From: Cytophagales bacterium
Lineage (GTDB): Bacteria > Bacteroidota > Bacteroidia > Cytophagales > Spirosomataceae
DNA: 64,000 nucleotides
NCBI GenBank assembly: GCA_013298215.1
Contig: JAAFKE010000006.1
Coordinates: forward strand, 35,285-99,284
Reading direction: 5' to 3'
Part shown: piece by piece, positions 6,543 through 21,841 of the stretch
Layout: each line of letters starts with the position of its first letter
Numbering within the stretch: position 1 is the stretch's first letter
The notes under the pieces: model-generated
What the model was told of the DNA's origin: nothing
The model's database searches: none
What the model saw: only the letters and a program-made list of their open reading frames with translations
Translations under genes and position numbers: made by a program

Positions 6543-7230
6543 GGTGCGTTTTTAGGGCAAGGGTGGCGCGGGCCAGTTCAATAAGTTTTTCGATTTGGCC
6601 GTCGAGCGTCATATACGACGTATCGATGAGCAGCGCGTCGTCGGCTTGGCGCAAGGGGCTGTCTTGGCGGGTGGTGTCTATGTGGTCGCGCTTGCGAATG
6701 TTGTCCAGAATTTCGTCCAAGTCGAGCGCGTCGCCCTTGGCCAAAAGCTCAGTCTGTCGGCGTTCGGCCCTAATCTGGGGCTGGGCAGTCATAAAAACTT
6801 TTAGTTCGGCATCAGGAAAAACCACCGTTCCAATATCGCGGCCGTCCATGACAACGCCCCTGGCCTTGGCCATGCGCTGCTGCTGCGCCACCATGGCGCG
6901 TCGCACCTCCGATATGGCACTAACCTGGCTCACTTGGTTGGCAATGTACATTTTCCTTATCTCGCTTTCTACATTAAGGCCGTTCAGATAGGTCTCGTTT
7001 TGACTGGTGGCGGGGTTCCATTGGAAAACAATGTGAATGTTTTCGAGCGCTTTGGCAACAGCCTTGGGGTTGGTAATGGCCACGTGGTTTTGGTGAAAGT
7101 ACAACGTCACGGCGCGGTACATGGCCCCCGTGTCTATGTAGGCGTAGCCCAGCTGCGCGGCCACGCCCTTGGCCGTAGTACTTTTGCCGCAACTCGAATA
7201 CCCATCAACGGCGATAATTATTTTGTGCAT
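6523..7230 (-). CDS. cmk: Cytidylate kinase
   Basis: 235 residues, the usual length. It phosphorylates CMP and dCMP with ATP in cytosolic pyrimidine nucleotide metabolism. The P-loop GYSSCGKST is at residues 9-17, followed by GYAYIDTGAMYRAVTLY. The CMP-binding and lid segments MDGRDIGTVVFPDA and RRQTELLAKG are present. It is the first gene of a minus-strand unit, overlapping the FAD oxidoreductase gene. The plus-strand gene at 7326 is divergent. Confidence 0.96.
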   Translation of the reverse strand: MHKIIIAVDGYSSCGKSTTAKGVAAQLGYAYIDTGAMYRAVTLYFHQNHVAITNPKAVAKALENIHIVFQWNPATSQNETYLNGLNVESEIRKMYIANQVSQVSAISEVRRAMVAQQQRMAKARGVVMDGRDIGTVVFPDAELKVFMTAQPQIRAERRQTELLAKGDALDLDEILDNIRKRDHIDTTRQDSPLRQADDALLIDTSYMTLDGQIEKLIELARATLALKTHHAPASH

Positions 7231-12100: not shown

Positions 12101-13225
12101 ATGAACGAGAATTTTTTTAGGAGACAAACTGCATCGTCTTTGATAAAAGCAAAAATTGTAGCTGAGTATTTTCCTCAATACTGCCGTATAATTTTAAAAA
12201 AGCCCCAAGAACAAATTGTATATATGGATTTATTTTCAGGTCCTGGAATTTATGAAGATGGGAAACATTCAACTCCCCTTCTAATAGCAAAATCTTGTGC
12301 TAACGATGACATGCTAAAATCAAAAGTACAATTGGCATTTAACGACAACCATTTTTCGAATGAGTTAAGGAAAAATTTTTCTGATTTTTTTTCAGATGAT
12401 ACATTTACATTTCCCCCAAGATTTGGAAACCTCACAGTTGGCGAAGACAACGCAATTTTTGATTACCTCACCAAATCACCTATAAAACCTAATCCAAAAC
12501 CGACATTACTATTTTTTGACCCCTGGGGATACAAAAGCATAAACATATCTGCGTTAGCTAAATTTCTTGAAAACTGGGGTAATGAAATATTTTTATTCAT
12601 AAACATAAAACGAATCCACGCGGCGGTAGAAAATAACAAGTTTGATGACTTGATGCTATCTTTATTTCCAACGACAATAGACAAAATTAGACGTGATAGA
12701 AAATATAAATCTACTGTTTATGAAAAGCTGAATTTGATAATGGACAATTTGGCAAACGAGTTTTGCAATCTAATCAAAGGTACAGTATACCATTGTTCAT
12801 TCAAGTTTCAAGAAGAAGATAGTCTTGCAACAAGTCATTTTATAATACACTTTACAAAGCACCATAAAGGGTATGAATTGGTAAAACAAATTTACTATGA
12901 TTTCGATAACATTGGAGCAAATTTAGAAAAAGATGGAGTCTATACTTTTGACGCTAAAAATATGGGGAATTCAGGTATTACCTTTGGTGATATGAATGTT
13001 ACAGCACTTTCAGCAGACCTTGAAGAAAAGTATAGTGGTAAAATAGTTACAGCACAAAAACTATTTGAAGAACATCAAAAAACCACAAAGTACTGTGGTT
13101 CTCACTATGCAAAAACACTGAGATATATGTTTGAAAAGGGACAAATCTATGCTAAATTCACAGACGATAAAACACATAAGGTCAGCGTATTAATTAATGA
13201 AAATTGCATTTTAACATTTAAATAA
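12101..13225 (+). CDS. tcmP: Three-Cys-motif partner protein (TcmP family)
   Basis: 374 residues. The N-terminal half has a methyltransferase-like Rossmann pattern: YMDLFSGPGIYEDG at about residues 41-54 resembles a SAM-binding motif I, and FFDPWGYK at about 138-145 resembles motif IV. The C-terminal about 60 residues (AQKLFEEHQKTTKYCGSHYA onward) look like a winged-helix or similar small domain. This pattern matches the TcmP family, defined by its consistent neighbour with a three-cysteine motif; that neighbour is the next gene, whose ATG directly follows this stop (TAAATG). The gene is clearly more AT-rich than kdsA upstream and the TonB gene downstream, suggesting acquisition by transfer. 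The biochemical role of TcmP is not established; methyltransferase activity is inference. Confidence 0.82.
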   Translation: MNENFFRRQTASSLIKAKIVAEYFPQYCRIILKKPQEQIVYMDLFSGPGIYEDGKHSTPLLIAKSCANDDMLKSKVQLAFNDNHFSNELRKNFSDFFSDDTFTFPPRFGNLTVGEDNAIFDYLTKSPIKPNPKPTLLFFDPWGYKSINISALAKFLENWGNEIFLFINIKRIHAAVENNKFDDLMLSLFPTTIDKIRRDRKYKSTVYEKLNLIMDNLANEFCNLIKGTVYHCSFKFQEEDSLATSHFIIHFTKHHKGYELVKQIYYDFDNIGANLEKDGVYTFDAKNMGNSGITFGDMNVTALSADLEEKYSGKIVTAQKLFEEHQKTTKYCGSHYAKTLRYMFEKGQIYAKFTDDKTHKVSVLINENCILTFK

Positions 13226-13939
13226 ATGGCGCAATCAAGCATAGAATGGACACAGCAAACTTGGAATCCTACGACTGGATGCAATAAAATTTCACAAGGT
13301 TGTAAGTTTTGCTACGCTGATGTAATGACCAAAAGATTAAAGGGAATGGGCCAGGAAAAATATAAAAATGGTTTTGAACTAACTATACACCCAAAAACAC
13401 TGAACGACCCCAGAAAATGGCGGCCATCAATAATTTTCGTAAATTCAATGAGTGATTTATTCCATGAAGGGGTTCCCGTTGAGTATATACAAGATGTGTT
13501 TAAGGTAATGAATGAATGCCCACAACATCAATTTCAAGTTCTTACAAAACGTGCCGAGAGGTTAGAGCAACTTTCTCCTTTTCTTAACTGGACTGAAAAT
13601 ATTTGGGCGGGCGTATCAGTAGAAAATCAAGAAACAATGTTTCGTATTTCTCATTTGCAGAGAACAAGTGCATTTATTAAATTTTTATCATGTGAACCTC
13701 TTTTGCAAAATCTACCCAATATGAATTTAATGTCCATCGACTGGGTTATTGTTGGTGGTGAATCTGGTTTTAAGGCAAGACCAATGCAGGAAGCATGGGT
13801 CTTAGATATAAAAGAGCAATGTGAAGTAGCCCAAGTCCCATTCTTTTTCAAACAATGGGGAGGTAAAAACAAAAAAGAAGCAGGACGACTTTTGCAAGGA
13901 AAGACATATGATGAAATGCCAAACTTCACTACTATATAG
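13226..13939 (+). CDS. Three-Cys-motif protein, DUF5131 / phage Gp37-Gp68 family
   Basis: 237 residues. Three N-terminal cysteines sit at 19, 26 and 29 (TGCNKISQGCKFCYA; C-x6-C-x2-C), preceded by IEWTQQTWNPTTG. Downstream blocks such as PSIIFVNSMSDLFHEGVP, FQVLTKRAERL and WVIVGGESGFKARPM, with VPFFFKQWGG near the end, are typical of the DUF5131 family found in phages and mobile regions. The spacing recalls, but is not, the canonical radical-SAM CxxxCxxC. It starts immediately after tcmP, so the pair is one operon. AT-rich like its partner. Function unknown; a joint nucleic-acid or cofactor chemistry is plausible but unproven. Confidence 0.85.
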   Translation: MAQSSIEWTQQTWNPTTGCNKISQGCKFCYADVMTKRLKGMGQEKYKNGFELTIHPKTLNDPRKWRPSIIFVNSMSDLFHEGVPVEYIQDVFKVMNECPQHQFQVLTKRAERLEQLSPFLNWTENIWAGVSVENQETMFRISHLQRTSAFIKFLSCEPLLQNLPNMNLMSIDWVIVGGESGFKARPMQEAWVLDIKEQCEVAQVPFFFKQWGGKNKKEAGRLLQGKTYDEMPNFTTI

Positions 13940-14112: not shown

Positions 14113-16515
14113 ATGGCAGCCAGAAAACTTCTACTACTCAGTCTTATTGTGGTGACACTGCCTTTTGGGCGCACCACTGCCCAGAGCCGACAAATATCAG
14201 GCACCATCCGCGATTATTATTCCCAACAAATAGTACCGCAGGCGAACGTGCAGGTCAAGCAGTTGGTGAGCCGCATCGTGAACGGTGCGCCCATGAACGT
14301 GCAGGTGCTCTACACCTCCACGCTGGCCAATGCCCAGGGGGTTTATACCGTAAAAGCCCCCCCCGACAATTACGTGGTGGAGGTGTCGGCGGTGGGATAC
14401 ATAAAAAAAGCGCGCTTCATAAACCTGCGAAAAGATAGCCAACTCGATTTTGAACTCTCCGAACAGATCAATCAGTTGGACGACGTGGAGATTTCGACCC
14501 AGAAGGCCGAAGGAAACGTGAAGAGCACGGAAATGAGTACGATAAAACTCAACGTGCAGTTGCTCAAAAAACTGCCCGTGGTCTTTGGCGAGAGCGACAT
14601 TATAAGAGCATTGACGCTGCAACCGGGCGTAACGACCGCCGGCGAGGGCGCGGGCGGGTTCAGTGTGCGCGGCGGACGGACAGACCAGAACTTGGTGCTT
14701 TTAGACGACGCTCCCATTTTTAATACCTCCCACCTACTCGGTATTTTTACGAGCGTGAACGCCGAGGCCGTCCAGAACGCAACGCTCTACAAAGGCGGCA
14801 TACCAGCACGCTACGGCGGGCGGCTGTCGTCGATCTTGACGATGACCACCAAAACCAGTACCGACGAGCGGCGGATGTCGGCGGGCGTTGGCCCAGTGAG
14901 CAGCAATTTGTTGGCCCATTTACCCTTCAAAAACAAAAAAGGCTCTTTTATGCTGGCGGGCAGGGCTGCCTACCCAAACTTTATGCTGGGTGCGTTTCCG
15001 AAGCGTTTGCAGGGCAGTAGGGCGTTTTTTTATGACCTCAACGCCTCGCTGCAATACCGCTTTACGCCCAAACATAGCCTCACAATGACGGCCTACCAGA
15101 GCTACGACGACTTTAAATTTCCCGAAGACACCTCCTACTTCTGGCAGTCGCGCATTGCCACGGCCCAGTGGAACACCGTGTTGAGCAGTAAGTTTTCGGT
15201 ATCGGCCAAGGCTATTTTGAGCCACTACACCTACGGAGTACGGGGTTTGACCAAGGACTTCGAGTACGAGCTATCGTCGCGGTTGCGCCACCACGAGGCC
15301 CGAACCGACTTTTTGTATCAGCCCTCCGATGCCCATAAAATAGAAGGAGGCGCAAGCCTGATTTTTTACCGTTTCTCGCCCGGTAGCATCGAGCCCACAA
15401 CGGGGCAGTCGGCCATTGTGAGCCGCTCGCTGGCCGACGAACGCGCCAGGGAGCTGTCGGCCTACCTTAGCTACGACTGGCGGGTGTCGGCTCGAATAGC
15501 TTTGCAGGTGGGCGCGCGCTACGCGGGTTTCAGCAACGTGGGGCCGACCCAAGTTTTTGAATATGCACCCGACCAACCCCGCAGCCGCGAGAGCATCATC
15601 GACACGTTGCAATTTGGTAGCGGCCAAACCAATTTTAGTTTCGGGGGCTTCGAACCGCGCGCGTCGCTCAAAATTGAAGTCTCCGATCGGCAGTCGTTCA
15701 AAATGAGTTACAACCGCACGCGCCAGTTTCTGCACCTCATTAGCAACACCACCGCCATATCGCCGATCGACTACTGGAAACTGAGCAATCGGTACGTTCC
15801 GCCCCAAATGGCCGATCAATTTTCGCTGGGCTACTACCAGAATTTCAAAGACAACGCCATTCAGACATCGGTAGAGGGCTTCTATAAACGAAACAACCAA
15901 TTGGTAGAGTACAAAGACGGCGCATCTTTGCTGCTCAACGAGCACCTGGAAACCGAGCTGCTCAACGCCACGGGCTATTCTTACGGGGTGGAGGTGAGCG
16001 CCGTTAAAACAAAGGGGCGCGTCACGGGGAGTTTGAGCTACACGTGGTCGCGGTCGTTGGTGGCGGTGCGGCCCCAGTTTCTGGCCGAGCAGGTCAATCA
16101 GGGCAACTATTTTCCGTCGCTTTTCGACAAACCGCACAACTTCACGCTATCGGGGCAGTGGTTTTTGGGCTCGGGGTGGACTTTTGCGGGTAATTTTCTC
16201 TACCAAACGGGCCGCCCAATTACGTATCCCGACGGCCAGTATTCGATTAACGAAAACTTGATTTTTAATTTTTCGGCACGCAACTTAGACCGCCTACCCG
16301 ACTACCACCGCCTCGACGTGTCGTTCTCGCGCGATAGCCGACGCAACAAAACCCAAAAGAAATACAACGTCCTCAATATTTCGTTTTATAACTTGTACGC
16401 CCGCAAAAACCCCTATTCCATCTTTTTTAGACAATACGTTGGCAATCCGAAGTCGTACCAATTGGCGGTTTTGGGAACCGTCATCCCGTCTATCACCCTC
16501 ACATTTCATTGGTAA
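14113..16515 (+). CDS. TonB-dependent outer-membrane receptor with carboxypeptidase-regulatory-like N-terminus
   Basis: 800 residues with a signal peptide (LLLLSLIVVTLPFGRTTAQ). A CarboxypepD-reg-like domain (SRQISGTIRDYYSQQIVPQA to about residue 115) precedes a plug domain (FGESDIIRALTLQPGV, GGFSVRGGRTDQNLVLLDDA). A beta-barrel fills the rest and ends in LTFHW, an aromatic C-terminus. Such receptors import a ligand across the outer membrane using TonB-ExbBD energy. The next gene is a DUF4249 lipoprotein 9 bp downstream, a standard pairing in Bacteroidota analogous to SusC/SusD. The substrate is unknown. Confidence 0.9.
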   Translation: MAARKLLLLSLIVVTLPFGRTTAQSRQISGTIRDYYSQQIVPQANVQVKQLVSRIVNGAPMNVQVLYTSTLANAQGVYTVKAPPDNYVVEVSAVGYIKKARFINLRKDSQLDFELSEQINQLDDVEISTQKAEGNVKSTEMSTIKLNVQLLKKLPVVFGESDIIRALTLQPGVTTAGEGAGGFSVRGGRTDQNLVLLDDAPIFNTSHLLGIFTSVNAEAVQNATLYKGGIPARYGGRLSSILTMTTKTSTDERRMSAGVGPVSSNLLAHLPFKNKKGSFMLAGRAAYPNFMLGAFPKRLQGSRAFFYDLNASLQYRFTPKHSLTMTAYQSYDDFKFPEDTSYFWQSRIATAQWNTVLSSKFSVSAKAILSHYTYGVRGLTKDFEYELSSRLRHHEARTDFLYQPSDAHKIEGGASLIFYRFSPGSIEPTTGQSAIVSRSLADERARELSAYLSYDWRVSARIALQVGARYAGFSNVGPTQVFEYAPDQPRSRESIIDTLQFGSGQTNFSFGGFEPRASLKIEVSDRQSFKMSYNRTRQFLHLISNTTAISPIDYWKLSNRYVPPQMADQFSLGYYQNFKDNAIQTSVEGFYKRNNQLVEYKDGASLLLNEHLETELLNATGYSYGVEVSAVKTKGRVTGSLSYTWSRSLVAVRPQFLAEQVNQGNYFPSLFDKPHNFTLSGQWFLGSGWTFAGNFLYQTGRPITYPDGQYSINENLIFNFSARNLDRLPDYHRLDVSFSRDSRRNKTQKKYNVLNISFYNLYARKNPYSIFFRQYVGNPKSYQLAVLGTVIPSITLTFHW

Positions 16516-17584: not shown

Positions 17585-18889
17585 ATGAAAAAAAACATCT
17601 TTAAAATTATACTTGCGCTGCTGCTCTTGGCGGGGGGCTGCACAAACGAGGCCGCACAAGAGATTTTTAAAAAGCCGTCGGTAGAGATTATTTCGGCCTA
17701 CGCCATTTCCGAGACCGCTGCCGAAGCAAGCGTCGATGTGTCGGACGTGATTCAGGAAATTGGTACGATTGGCGTAGTGTGGGGCGAAAAATCCAACCCC
17801 ACCACCACCGACCGCCAGCTTACAGCCAACAAAATAACGACGTCTCAGTTGGTCAATTTTGTTTTGCCCAACCTTCAATCGGGCAAAACTTACTTTTTGC
17901 GGGCTTTTTATGTGGTGGACGGCGAGACGGTTTATGGATCAGAACTCTCGTTCTTGCAAACGATCTCGGGCGAGTGGCGGCGACTTTCGTCGCCGCCACT
18001 CAATGCCGACGAATATATCTACGCTGGCAACACCATTTATACCCTTACGAGCCAGTCGATGCGGTGTTTTAAGGTGAACAAAACCACTGGTTTGTGCCTG
18101 CCACAAGACTACTACCGGGAGTTTGGCGAATGGAACCCATCCTTTTTTGGCCGCCCACCCGCGCCACCCAAACCCGAGCCGCTTCTATACAGCCCCATTC
18201 TTTGTGGTTTCGATGGCCTGACGCTCTACGGCGGCGGCTACACCTTCATAACCCGCGACCGGGTGGTGTACCAACGTGCCATGTTCATTCTCGAGTCGAA
18301 CGGCCGCTGGGAACCTTACCCAGGAGCCGAGGCGGCCACCAGCTCGTTTGGCATCGGCAAGTTTCCGTATGTATTAGAAAACCTGCCGAACGGTAAAATG
18401 TGGCGGTTCAATTTTTCTAATCTGTCGTGGACTGATCTCGGACGCTGCCCGTTCAACAAGCCAGCCCGGTATGTGAGTCTGGACATCGGAGAGCGGGGCT
18501 TTATGCTGGTAGAACCACAAAACTGGCAAGACCCCGTGCGAGAACTGTACGAATACCTGCCCGTAGAAAACAAGTGGGTGCGCCGGGCTGACTTTCCAGG
18601 CGAAAACCGCCGCCGATCTACGTCTTTTTCGATTGGCAACCGTGCTTTTTTTGGCATGGGGCAGTCGGCCACCGACTACCGTGGCCTGCGCGATTTGTGG
18701 GAATACGACGCTACGGCCGACAGTTGGAAAAAAGCGGCCGACTTCCCTGGAAGCGGCACCGTGAACACCATGGCCGTTGGCTACAACACCACGGCCAACA
18801 TTGGCTTTGGCCAACAAGCCCGCCGAACCTCGGTGAACGCCGAAGACTACCGAACCTCAACCGATTTTTGGCAGTTTAGGCCCAGATAA
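17585..18889 (+). CDS. Kelch-repeat lipoprotein with an N-terminal fibronectin-like domain
   Basis: The ATG at 17585 gives MKKNIFKIILALLLLAGGCTNEA, a clear lipoprotein signal; an upstream TTG at 17567 would add only six residues before it and is unlikely. Residues about 30-125 look like an Ig/FN3-type domain (IGTIGVVWGEKSNPTTTD, LQSGKTYFLRAFYVVDGETVYG). The remainder has Kelch-type blades with paired Trp and Gly, such as RELYEYLPVENKWVRRADFP and RDLWEYDATADSWKKAADFP. It is the third gene of the TonB receptor/DUF4249 unit and so probably a surface component of that system. It ends TDFWQFRPR. Confidence 0.8.
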   Translation: MKKNIFKIILALLLLAGGCTNEAAQEIFKKPSVEIISAYAISETAAEASVDVSDVIQEIGTIGVVWGEKSNPTTTDRQLTANKITTSQLVNFVLPNLQSGKTYFLRAFYVVDGETVYGSELSFLQTISGEWRRLSSPPLNADEYIYAGNTIYTLTSQSMRCFKVNKTTGLCLPQDYYREFGEWNPSFFGRPPAPPKPEPLLYSPILCGFDGLTLYGGGYTFITRDRVVYQRAMFILESNGRWEPYPGAEAATSSFGIGKFPYVLENLPNGKMWRFNFSNLSWTDLGRCPFNKPARYVSLDIGERGFMLVEPQNWQDPVRELYEYLPVENKWVRRADFPGENRRRSTSFSIGNRAFFGMGQSATDYRGLRDLWEYDATADSWKKAADFPGSGTVNTMAVGYNTTANIGFGQQARRTSVNAEDYRTSTDFWQFRPR

Positions 18890-19076
18890 AGGTTTCAAAA
18901 CGTTTTTACCCTGAAAAAGATCGGCACGAAAAACGGCCTTTTTAGAATTTATAATGGCCTCTTGAACGTAACCACCCTTTTTTTTAACAATTTTGCGGCA
19001 TCAGAACCATGCAGTAGTTGTGCGTCATTTTAAAAAACATCCTTGATACGACGATTGCCAAATATTAGACATTTTT

Positions 19077-19562
19077 ATGGATAAAGAACTCAAATTTAGA
19101 CTTGCAACAAAAGACGACTTGTTAGACATTGTTAGGATGTTAGCAGATGACAATCTTGGAGCGACAAGAGAGAAATTCACTGAGGTTCTTTCTGACAATT
19201 ATATAAAAGCATTTAACATCATTAACTCTGACAATAACCAAGAATTAACCATTGTAGAGCTGAACGGAGACAAAGTAGCGACTTTCCATTTAACATTTAT
19301 ACAATACTTGACACATCAAGGCGGACTTAGAGCCCAGATTGAAGCTGTTAGAACAGATTCAAATTATCGTGGACGAGGTATTGGAAGAAAGGTATTTGAT
19401 TACGCAATTGAAAGAGCAAAAGAAAAGGGTTGTATCTTATTGCAATTGACAACGGACAAAAAAAGACCTGATGCGTTACGATTTTATGAAACAATTGGGT
19501 TTGTTGCGACACACGAAGGGATGAAACTTAAACTGCAAAAACTGCAAACTAACCAACTGTAA
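19077..19562 (+). CDS. GNAT-family N-acetyltransferase (first copy)
   Basis: 161 residues. The acetyl-CoA binding motif A is visible as VRTDSNYRGRGIGRKVFDYA (R/Q-x-x-G-x-G/A), followed by motif B LQLTTDKKRPDALRFYETIGF. The N-terminus KFRLATKDDLLDIVRMLADD is typical of stand-alone GNATs acting on small molecules or amines; the substrate is unknown. AT-rich relative to the Kelch gene before it. Directly downstream is a palindromic attC-like element, and GTTGTGCG lies upstream at 19017-19024, so it may be a mobile cassette. A different GNAT gene stands in the same arrangement at 57588. Confidence 0.9.
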   Translation: MDKELKFRLATKDDLLDIVRMLADDNLGATREKFTEVLSDNYIKAFNIINSDNNQELTIVELNGDKVATFHLTFIQYLTHQGGLRAQIEAVRTDSNYRGRGIGRKVFDYAIERAKEKGCILLQLTTDKKRPDALRFYETIGFVATHEGMKLKLQKLQTNQL

Positions 19563-19609
19563 TTTGTCAGAAATAAATAAGAACGACTAATCGCAGAAAT
19601 AAAAACGAA

Positions 19610-19807
19610 CGCACAACATGGTATTGCCAATAGTGGGGCTGACGGAATTAATTGAGCAGTAGTAATCCTATTTGGCTTCGGTTCGGGCAGACGAATTACT
19701 TATGAGCATTAGGTTTTTAACTTCGGCATTTGTACTTTTATTGTGCTTTGGGTGCGGGCTGACGTTTTTCAAATTCCCCACCATCGGCAATACCCCGACG
19801 TTGGGCG
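19610..19807. repeat. Imperfect palindromic attC-like element A
   Basis: The left end, from CGCACAACATGGTATTGCC at 19610, is matched in inverted orientation by the right end, whose reverse complement begins CGCCCAACGTCGGGG and runs on through TATTGCCGATGGTGGGG (19807-19776). About 24 of 29 aligned positions agree, with a two-base bulge. The outer cores read GCACAAC and GTTGGGC, the latter fitting the integron attC core GTTRRRY. It lies directly after a GNAT gene. Related elements are at 20774 and 58121. attC identity is inference. Confidence 0.6.
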
Positions 19808-19830
19808 AAAATTTTGAGCGACCCACCTAA
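19702..19830 (+). CDS. Possible 42-residue lipoprotein-like ORF inside element A
   Basis: ATG at 19702 and TAA at 19828-19830. The translation begins MSIRFLTSAFVLLLCFGCG, which looks like a short lipoprotein signal with lipobox LCFGC, followed by about 23 polar residues. It overlaps the right arm of element A. It may be a truncated gene start or a chance ORF; there is no other support. Confidence 0.25.
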   Translation: MSIRFLTSAFVLLLCFGCGLTFFKFPTIGNTPTLGENFERPT

Positions 19831-19895
19831 ATCAACAATTACAGTCAATTTGAAGAGAAAAATCGTAAATTTGCTTAGACAATTTCAAAAATAAA

Positions 19896-20768
19896 ATGAG
19901 CAAGAAATTAATTCGATTTGATTGGGCTATAAAAAGACTTTTAAGAAACAAAGCCAACTTTGTTGTTTTAGAAGGGTTTTTAAGTGAGCTTCTATTTGAC
20001 AATATTAAAATTGAGCAAATTTTAGAAAGCGAAAGTAATCAAGAAACTGAGGATGATAAGTTCAATCGGGTAGATGTTTTGACTCAAAATTCAAAAAACG
20101 AATTAATAATTATTGAAATTCAAAGCACCTATGAAATTGATTATTTTCACAGAATGGCATATGGTGTTTCAAAAAGCATTACTGAAAACATAAAACTTGG
20201 ACAAAAGTATTCGGAAATCAAAAAAATTATTTCAATTAATATTGTTTACTTTGACTTAGGACAAGGACAAGACTATATCTACAAAGGGAAGACTGATTTT
20301 ATTGGACTTCACCAAAAAGACTTGTTAGGTCTTTCTGAAAAACAAAGGATAACATTTTTGAAAGAAAAAATTTCAGATATTTTTCCAGAGTTTTACCTTT
20401 TGAAAGTCAATCAATTTAACGACAACGCCAAAGACACCTTAGACGAATGGATTTACTTCTTGAAAAACAGCGAAGTAAAAGACGAGTTCAAAGCCAAAGG
20501 ACTAAAAGAAGCAGGCGAAGTTTTGGACATTATGCGACTTGAAAAGGAAGACGAATATGGCTACAATCGTTATTTGGATAGTTTGCATCTAAAAGCAAGT
20601 GAAATTTTTACTTTGCAGACAGAAGCAGAATTTAAGGCGAAAGACGAAAGGAGTATTGAAATTACAAGAAAATTAATACTAAATGGAGCTGACAACAATC
20701 TTATAACTCTTTCAACAGACTTAACAATTGAACAAATTGAAGAATTAAGAACAGAACTAAAAAAATAA
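19896..20768 (+). CDS. PD-(D/E)XK nuclease-family transposase-like protein (PDDEXK_2 / Rpn-like), first copy
   Basis: 290 residues. The nuclease core reads FNRVDVLTQNSKNELIIIEIQS: Asp60, then Glu74-x-Gln76, the E-x-Q variant of the (D/E)XK motif typical of PDDEXK_2. The N-terminus FDWAIKRLLRNKANFVVLEGFL, with the mid-region YFHRMAYGVSKSI, is family-typical. The C-terminus is a charged helical tail (RSIEITRKLILNGADNNLI). Relatives promote recombination or are annotated as putative transposases; function here is unproven. AT-rich, flanked by palindromic elements A (upstream) and B (downstream). A distant homologue is at 58272. Confidence 0.85.
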   Translation: MSKKLIRFDWAIKRLLRNKANFVVLEGFLSELLFDNIKIEQILESESNQETEDDKFNRVDVLTQNSKNELIIIEIQSTYEIDYFHRMAYGVSKSITENIKLGQKYSEIKKIISINIVYFDLGQGQDYIYKGKTDFIGLHQKDLLGLSEKQRITFLKEKISDIFPEFYLLKVNQFNDNAKDTLDEWIYFLKNSEVKDEFKAKGLKEAGEVLDIMRLEKEDEYGYNRYLDSLHLKASEIFTLQTEAEFKAKDERSIEITRKLILNGADNNLITLSTDLTIEQIEELRTELKK

Positions 20769-20773
20769 ATCTT

Positions 20774-21000
20774 CGCCCAACATGGGGTTTTGTGCAAGTG
20801 GGGCAGGCGGAATAACAATCGGCTTTTTGTTCTCTACTTTACTTCGGTCTCGGCTTGACAAGCATCGCTGAACATTTGTAATAAACTTGTACCGCACGGG
20901 CGGCCCCGATTTGTTTTCAATCATCAGCGGTTACGGGCAGACGGAACGGTTCGCCGCTGCGATTCTATTTCCCCGCCTGCACAAAGCCCTGTTCGTTGTG
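20774..21000. repeat. Imperfect palindromic attC-like element B
   Basis: The left end, CGCCCAACATGGGGTTTTGT (20774-20793) continuing GCAAGTGGGGCAGGCGG, is matched inverted by the right end (reverse complement from 20998 reads CAACGAACAGGGCTTTGTGC). The shared part is AACA(T)GGG, TTTGTGCA and GGCGG. The left core GCCCAAC fits RYYYAAC; the right end has GTTGTG at 20995-21000. The element starts five bases after the PDDEXK_2 stop codon and fills the gap to the exonuclease gene. It resembles element A in sequence and position. Confidence 0.55.
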
Positions 21001-21022
21001 ATAACACCCGTAATTTGAAACC

Positions 21023-21841
21023 ATGCACACCTTAAAACTTAAAAAACCCCTCGCTTTTTTTGACCTCGAAACCACCGGCCTCAGCATTCAGAAAGGCCGG
21101 ATCGTGGAACTCAGCGTGGTGAAGGCCCTCGTAAACGGCGAAATAACGGTCAAAACCACCAAGGTAAATCCCGAGATGCCCATTCCCACCGAGACCAGCA
21201 TGATTCACGGTATTTATGACGACGACGTGAAAGACTGCCCTACTTTTAAGAGTTTTGCCAAAACGTTGGCGCAGTTCTTGGAGGGTTGCGACCTGGCGGG
21301 TTTCAACTCCAACCGGTTCGATGTGCCGATGTTGGTGGAGGAATTTTTACGGGCGGGCGTGGATTTTGACATCAAAAACCGCCGACTTGTGGATGCGCAA
21401 CGGATTTTTCACCTCATGGAGCCCCGCAATTTGGGCGCAGCCTACAAGTTTTACTGCGGCAAAAACCTCGAAAACGCCCACAGCGCCGAAGCCGACACAA
21501 TGGCAACCTTCGAAATACTAAACGCCCAAGTGCACCGCTACGAAGGCATAGTAATGAAAGACGACAAAGGCCAAGACTACCAACCCATTCAGAACGACGT
21601 GCAGGTGCTGCACAACCTGACATCGGGCAAAATTGTGGACTTTGCGGGCAGAATGACCCTCAACAAAGACAACGAAGAGGTTTTTAACTTTGGCAAACAC
21701 AGTGGCAAACGCGTGGCCGACGTGCTTAAACAAGAACCTGGCTACTACGACTGGATGATGAAGGGCGATTTTACGCTCGATACCAAGCGAAAACTGACCG
21801 AAATCAAAATGAGATCGGCCTTTCAGGGCAAGCTGTTTTGA
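21023..21841 (+). CDS. DnaQ-like 3'-5' exonuclease with C-terminal DUF3820-type domain
   Basis: 272 residues. DEDD exonuclease motifs: FFDLETTGLS (DxE, motif I), GFNSNRFDVPMLVEEF (motif II) and HSAEADTMATFEIL (H-x4-D, motif III). After about residue 210 a second domain, FNFGKHSGKRVADVLKQEPG onward, resembles the small DUF3820/ExoX-C module. It hydrolyses 3' ends of DNA, or RNA, and is a candidate proofreading or repair exonuclease; a specific partner is not evident. The nuoK promoter overlaps its stop codon. Confidence 0.88.
   Translation: MHTLKLKKPLAFFDLETTGLSIQKGRIVELSVVKALVNGEITVKTTKVNPEMPIPTETSMIHGIYDDDVKDCPTFKSFAKTLAQFLEGCDLAGFNSNRFDVPMLVEEFLRAGVDFDIKNRRLVDAQRIFHLMEPRNLGAAYKFYCGKNLENAHSAEADTMATFEILNAQVHRYEGIVMKDDKGQDYQPIQNDVQVLHNLTSGKIVDFAGRMTLNKDNEEVFNFGKHSGKRVADVLKQEPGYYDWMMKGDFTLDTKRKLTEIKMRSAFQGKLF

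Follow-up and report, generated by a model that had tools for sequence, protein, structure and literature searches.

Genes that are each followed by a long palindrome may be gene cassettes or may merely lie beside repeats, and this is the question raised by a locus in the genome of a Cytophagales bacterium. The stretch analysed, referred to as the window, is 64,000 nucleotides long. A sequence-only reading of it had pointed to two consecutive gene-plus-palindrome units and had described them as looking like integron cassettes, possibly of a CALIN-like array or of a Bacteroidota element of similar design. We here address whether the units are cassettes, which recombinase would move them and how that system relates to integrons.

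Two probable gene cassettes in the window

Both units were recovered at approximately the positions first given, and all features described in this section lie on the + strand. The left flank of the insertion, ending ...GGCATCAGAACCATGCAGTA, occupies positions 18990..19016, and its junctions were read directly. Cassette 1 (19017..19800), delimited by the G of its left GTT and that of the following GTT, starts with GTTGTGCGT, which is the left core of site A reverse-complemented. Its cargo is a GNAT acetyltransferase gene of 161 aa (19077..19562; Pfam PF00583, 58.3 bits), followed by the attC-like site A (19609..19807). The outer stem of site A reads GGTATTGCCAATAGTGGGG / CCCCACCATCGGCAATACC in the window, and between its left core CGCACAAC and its right core GTTGGGC lie an AT spacer, an inner stem of 19-20 bp and the right spacer CCGAC. 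Cassette 2 (19800..20995) runs from GTTGGGCGAA at 19800 to the G of GTTGTGATAAC at 20995, and here too the start matches the reverse-complemented left core of the cassette's own site B, TTCGCCCAAC. It carries a PDDEXK_2 / Rpn-family nuclease gene of 290 aa (19896..20768; Pfam PF12784, 83.6 bits; TIGR01784) and the attC-like site B (20773..21002). The GNAT and PDDEXK_2 assignments of the sequence-only reading were upheld by the Pfam matches, and the units are AT-rich as it had noted, with 37% G+C in cassette 1 and 34% in cassette 2, whereas the flanking genes have 54% and 50%. The motif GTTGTGCG, which it had placed upstream of the GNAT gene, is present at 19017 and was obtained in 14 of 20,000 shuffles of the intergenic stretch. 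The gene behind site B encodes an exonuclease (RNase_T; 21023..21841), identified by Pfam and by its orthologues in the family; it is a flanking gene outside the element, with the cassettes inserted in front of it.

A short GC-rich repeat (TGTACCGCACGGGCGGCCCCG and variants) was observed in the loops of several sites and also elsewhere. It lies at about 20890-20920 of the window, within site B, at 6616-6862 of locus L017, at 6331-6606 of L019 and near the start of L021. The repeat seems to be a separate interspersed element that apparently resides in hairpin loops.

The palindromes as attC-like sites

Minimum-free-energy z-scores of -0.30 for site A and -0.39 for site B did not separate the two palindromes from shuffled sequences, and an Rfam search gave no match. 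Searches with A and B did recover homologous sites on other contigs of the same genome. In 10 aligned copies changes on both sides were seen in 13 of 19 inner-stem pairs, and with 97 sites covariation extended to 18 of the 19. The covariance model built from these 97 sites, R3, contains sites of other genera only and no sequence from this genome. In those parts of this genome that were fetched, it detected 13 sites on the forward strand, among them site A (E 3.3e-22) and site B (E 3.2e-14). The palindromes are above chance by their recurrence, by covariation and by the independent model, and not by their free energy.

Cassette boundaries and anatomy of the sites

The start of each cassette is tied to the site at its other end. 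Read as its reverse complement, GTTGTGCG at 19017 gives the left core of site A and GTTGGGCGAA at 19800 that of site B; the rule is that a cassette begins with the left core of its own site in reverse-complemented form. Among neighbouring site pairs, 60 of 69 match at 6-7 of 7 variable positions, while agreement with the right core of the same site, or with random cores, is at about 3 of 7; over the 69 pairs 434 matches were observed, and the maximum reached in 10,000 permutations was 257. Since the cassette starts mirror their own left cores, the last bases of a site belong to the next cassette, and the full outer stem would be present only in the circular cassette. The rule is the hallmark of integron cassettes, and in IntI cassettes the pairing spans 9-11 consecutive nucleotides (PMC2727003). 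Here the two cassette ends, followed position by position, pair over 10 nt, fail at position 11 and pair over 4 nt more, giving a 15-nt complementarity. At position 11 the start and the end of the cassette present A versus C in 55 of 66 cases and A versus G in 8. In a very small comparison, two readable IntI cassettes paired over 13 and 7 nt without such a mismatch.

A second fixed mismatch is found in the inner stem, at a position that reads A.C in 85 of 88 sites and forms no standard pair in 94 of 96. Each of these A.C mismatches corresponds to a G.T wobble on the opposite, bottom strand, and in 52 of 67 sites it is this strand that has the more stable core hairpin. The AAC/GTT cores are nearly invariant among aligned sites, the sides of the central spacer are unequal, most often 3-4 nt longer on the right, and the sites as a whole are hairpins of about 70 to 285 nt, in which no regular extrahelical base was made out. 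The 69 cassettes have a median length of 874 bp, and in 61 of 66 the longest frame has the orientation of the site. Because the sequence is free to vary while pairing is kept and the mismatches are fixed, the site is probably recognised as a folded single strand. In attC the active strand is the bottom strand (PMC2727003), and the same is predicted for the sites described here.

Two extremes of size were observed. Locus L116 of Rufibacter sp. has sites of about 70 nt, the ordinary length of attC, behind the same type of recombinase, most others being 130-200 nt. In L071 and L086, both from family genome G087, three repeats of gene-less 99-nt cassettes (GTTGGCGGCAAGTTTTTTCGGGGATTTTTG...) were found, which are minimal cassettes.

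A recombinase platform on another contig

The sequence-only reading had seen no integrase, and this is correct for the window; it does not hold for the genome. Contig C31 encodes an intact tyrosine recombinase of 361 aa (L014, 6318-7403). About 155 nt past its stop codon lies an attI-like site, AAAACTTTCGTATATTTAAGAG^TTAGCGGC, which ends in GTATATTTAAGAG^TT and is followed by a cassette array with four sites up to the contig end. The cargo of this array comprises an erythromycin-esterase-like gene, a radical SAM/PhyH/ATP-grasp unit and two genes without a Pfam match. The unit is one multi-gene cassette (L014, 9173-12773) with a radical SAM protein, a PhyH dioxygenase and an MvdD-like ATP-grasp protein, and it was taken as a graspetide-like operon because of the MvdD pre-ATP-grasp domain. 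Contig C34 (L016, 2000-3640) holds a truncated recombinase, the same attI-like sequence in intact form and an array of its own, and is a second, decayed platform.

The same order of recombinase, attI-like site and array, all on one strand, was found in other genera of the family and on a Chryseobacterium plasmid, and in several genera the first cassette is preceded by the attI-like consensus ...TATATT(T)A(A/G)(A/G)GAG^TT. In loci of named genomes that had been fetched by the recombinase alone, 48 of 51 sites lie downstream of the recombinase gene and 48 of these 48 are on its strand, although more upstream than downstream sequence was searched in such loci. Sites were present in 15 of 20 Bacteroidota loci with more than 2 kb of downstream sequence. 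The cargo of the system includes acetyltransferases, the graspetide-like operon, and restriction and other defence-like genes.

When 77 proteins from the cassettes of L067-L086 were scanned, the defence genes observed as cargo included a restriction enzyme and Septu-like (PtuA/PtuB), CARF-type and mCpol-type genes. The Chryseobacterium plasmid (L087, NZ_CP041688.1) carries a palindromic element of about 180 bp, GTTGGGAAAAATCGCCC...GAGCTGGCCGTTA, at 13133-13310, 15230-15405 and 17615-17790. It sits exactly at the GTT of attI and at the GTT of several sites, and resembles a cassette devoid of a gene or an element that parasitises the crossover point.

Identity of the recombinase

The array-linked recombinases have a tyrosine-recombinase domain with conserved catalytic motifs. 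What defines IntI is an extra domain around patch III (PMC9668308), and this IntI-specific insertion, present in IntI1-3, was absent in 14 of 14 array-linked recombinases. Against the curated IntI model TIGR02249 a score of 159.1 bits was obtained at a cut-off of 265, with the match split in two. In the phylogenetic tree IntI forms one clade (support 100/100) and the array-linked recombinases fall in a separate Bacteroidota clade (94/98), the order between the clades being not settled. A search of this genome for IntI gave none at E 1e-30. The C-terminus xSPLDxL is common to the array-linked recombinases and IntI. Judged by its sequence the recombinase is not IntI, and the label 'site-specific tyrosine recombinase/integron integrase' that NCBI gives to a homologue is the name of a protein model and not the description of a system.

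In a structure model of a relative the nearest solved folds are those of Xer recombinases and of IntI4, in a whole-model comparison that barely tests the N-terminal part. This part holds an extra domain for which a small beta-beta-alpha-beta-beta fold is predicted, and a fold search with it placed the SMARCAL1 HARP domain (4o66) at rank 4 with E 0.71, a weak match. By profile, PF07443 (HARP) scored above the Pfam cut-off in the recombinases of L076, L105 and L121 and was sub-threshold or absent in the others, that of this genome included. PF07443 is the HARP domain of SMARCAL1, which is an annealing helicase active at forks. From these three proteins and the weak fold match, the array-linked recombinase is tentatively assigned an N-terminal HARP-like domain.

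Insertion point and mobility

Orthologues of the exonuclease gene behind site B occur in 100 of 101 genomes of the family. At the 29 closest of these loci no attC-like site was found, so the insertion in the window looks local. The sequence-only reading had named three outcomes that would speak against its cassette interpretation, namely palindromes fixed in place in all relatives, palindromes that never border different genes and chance inverted repeats. The sites border many different genes, are lacking at these closest loci and are not chance repeats. The genus is represented by this genome alone, and at the orthologous exonuclease loci the intergenic sequence is too diverged for an empty site to be read at the nucleotide level. 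The predicted empty site is CAGTAG^TTGTGATAACACCCG (that is, CAGTAGTTGTGATAAC), and both cassettes would have been inserted in tandem at the secondary site CAGTAG^TTGTG before the exonuclease gene. Homologues of the GNAT gene in 10 other genomes have no adjoining R2 site and therefore do not demonstrate the same cassette elsewhere.

Replacement of arrays is evident from genome comparison. In two genome pairs the stretch of recombinase and attI is about 88-93% identical, homology ends at the crossover, at ...CAGATG^TTGT in one pair and at ...TACGCTCG^TT in the other, and the first cassettes past this point are unrelated within both pairs. One cassette with its site, 88% identical, was found at different array positions in L077 and L084. 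Polymorphic insertions are seen between related species, whose arrays differ beyond G^TT while the platform is conserved. From these homology breakpoints and the solitary insertions we infer that crossover takes place at G^TT.

Distribution and previous descriptions

By model R1, sites occur in 69 of 101 family genomes. Across the phylum, model R2 gave sites in 119 of 296 genomes and in 71 of 140 genera. For this count scoring was limited to the few best candidates of each genome, and true attC of genomes of other classes with IntI may be included. In a small control 0 of 19 non-Bacteroidota genomes had sites. A true IntI above cut-off was detected in 84 of the 296 sampled phylum genomes and, within the same class, in one only among the genomes listed. 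Two metagenome-assembled genomes filed as Spirochaetota (L121, 7124-7960) and Firmicutes (L106, 7137-7860) each combine a HARP-type recombinase of this kind with an attI-like start and a single cassette. The ends of the two cassettes are paired over 21 and 19 nt, respectively, and position 11 again shows the A.C mismatch. The range of the system may extend beyond Bacteroidota, binning errors being possible for both of these genomes.

In Bacteroidetes proper, integrases without cassettes had earlier been found and then, with IntegronFinder 2.0, one complete integron, that of Salinibacter ruber (PMC9024848). Searches of the open-access literature on integrons of Bacteroidota, Cytophagales and Flavobacterium and on HARP recombinases gave no description of the system; preprints and subscription papers were outside this scope, and an earlier description is possible. 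The cassette logic itself is that of integrons.

Proposed mechanism and alternative explanations

The two units of the window are very probably gene cassettes that belong to an integron-like system of capture and shuffling; they would have entered a secondary site in tandem, and the working platform of the system lies on C31. What the sequences establish is the platform, the arrays, the boundary rule, the hairpin with its fixed A.C mismatches and the replacement of arrays from G^TT onwards. In the proposed mechanism a cassette would be excised as a circle. One strand of its site, more likely the non-coding one, would fold into a hairpin whose outer stem is perfect, and the recombinase would then cut at G^TT. 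The cassette would be joined to double-stranded attI, to another site or, occasionally, to a loose GTT-like site as in the window. Action in trans is assumed since the recombinase and the window cassettes are on different contigs. The HARP-like N-terminal domain may read the folded strand in the role of the IntI-specific domain, and this is the least certain step.

That the units are classical integron cassettes, with attC recombined by a bona fide IntI and present here as a CALIN, would agree with the AAC...GTT cores, the palindromic sites, the boundary rule and the attI-like insertion point, and equally with the C-terminus shared with IntI and the true IntI of 84 of 296 phylum genomes. This genome, however, has no IntI at E 1e-30, and the array-linked recombinases have no IntI insertion, reach 159 of 265 bits and stand outside the IntI clade with its support of 100/100, which makes this explanation very improbable. 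The design named in the sequence-only reading is upheld by the cassettes with their cores and boundary rule, by the arrays and their platform and by the polymorphic insertions, while membership among the IntI integrons is not supported: the recombinase is without the IntI-specific domain and outside its clade, and the anatomy of the sites differs. The system would function like an integron without being an IntI integron.

The same cassette system could also operate by Xer-like action on double-stranded sites, the hairpins serving, for example, transcription termination or protection of mRNA ends. An enzyme nearest to Xer recombinases in fold and in NCBIfam score, and devoid of the domain that IntI uses on folded DNA, would fit this, but A.C mismatches fixed among covarying pairs are hard to explain in such a case, as are an outer-stem pairing regained only in the circular form and spacers of unequal length; we regard it as improbable, if somewhat less so than a classical integron. 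An Xer/dif module in the strict sense was rejected, since a short two-arm dif-type site at both ends is not what was found: one side has a long hairpin and the other a 15-nt cassette start. Dispersed palindromic repeats of REP or MITE type, or terminators, situated by unrelated AT-rich genes without cassette recombination, would account for palindromes dispersed 3' of genes and for the second, GC-rich repeat in some loops. A REP or MITE unit should be independent of the far end of the gene, and instead the left cores match that far end; the boundary rule spans whole genes, the order of recombinase, attI and array on one strand is fixed and polymorphism starts at one nucleotide position, so that such repeats are the least credible explanation of all. 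Terminators, REP/MITE elements and dif modules alike leave the boundary rule, the fixed order and the polymorphism unexplained.

Comparison with known systems

The integron-like system shares with integrons (IntI/attI/attC, including sedentary chromosomal integrons and CALIN) a recombinase gene with an attI-like site and an array, tandem cassettes of mostly one gene with the site downstream of the gene, and AAC/GTT cores with a cassette start complementary to its own left core and a G^TT crossover. Hairpin sites, the asymmetric central spacer and solitary insertions elsewhere are also common to both. It differs in its recombinase, which has no IntI-specific insertion, does not fall in the IntI clade and bears a HARP-like domain at its N-terminus, and in that recombinase gene and array point in the same direction. 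Its sites differ as well, by the 15-nt end complementarity with A.C at position 11 and by an inner stem of about 20 bp with a second A.C. With the Xer recombinases (XerC, XerD, XerA) it has in common the nearest solved folds of the catalytic part and the NCBIfam relatives, whereas hairpin sites of about 70 to 285 nt, cassette arrays behind an attI-like site and an extra N-terminal domain set it apart from Xer/dif. Unlike in SMARCAL1, the HARP-like domain is fused here to a tyrosine recombinase and not to an SNF2 helicase.

We lean towards the view that this is a second integron lineage, in which tyrosine recombinases without the IntI domain shuffle cassettes by way of folded single-strand sites, with a HARP-like fork-reading domain and A.C mismatches. 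Such a lineage would be common across Bacteroidota and perhaps be present in Spirochaetota and Bacillota, and would have originated independently of IntI, or else at a time when IntI had yet to acquire its domain. The system also points to a large cassette pool in a phylum with one named complete integron (Bacteroidetes proper). Integrons are thought to depend on the IntI-specific domain for folded attC, and the selection of this domain before attC existed has been described as a chicken-and-egg paradox (PMC4792948). A widespread system of the same logic without the IntI domain makes this paradox testable and gives an independent comparison for the integrons of IntI.
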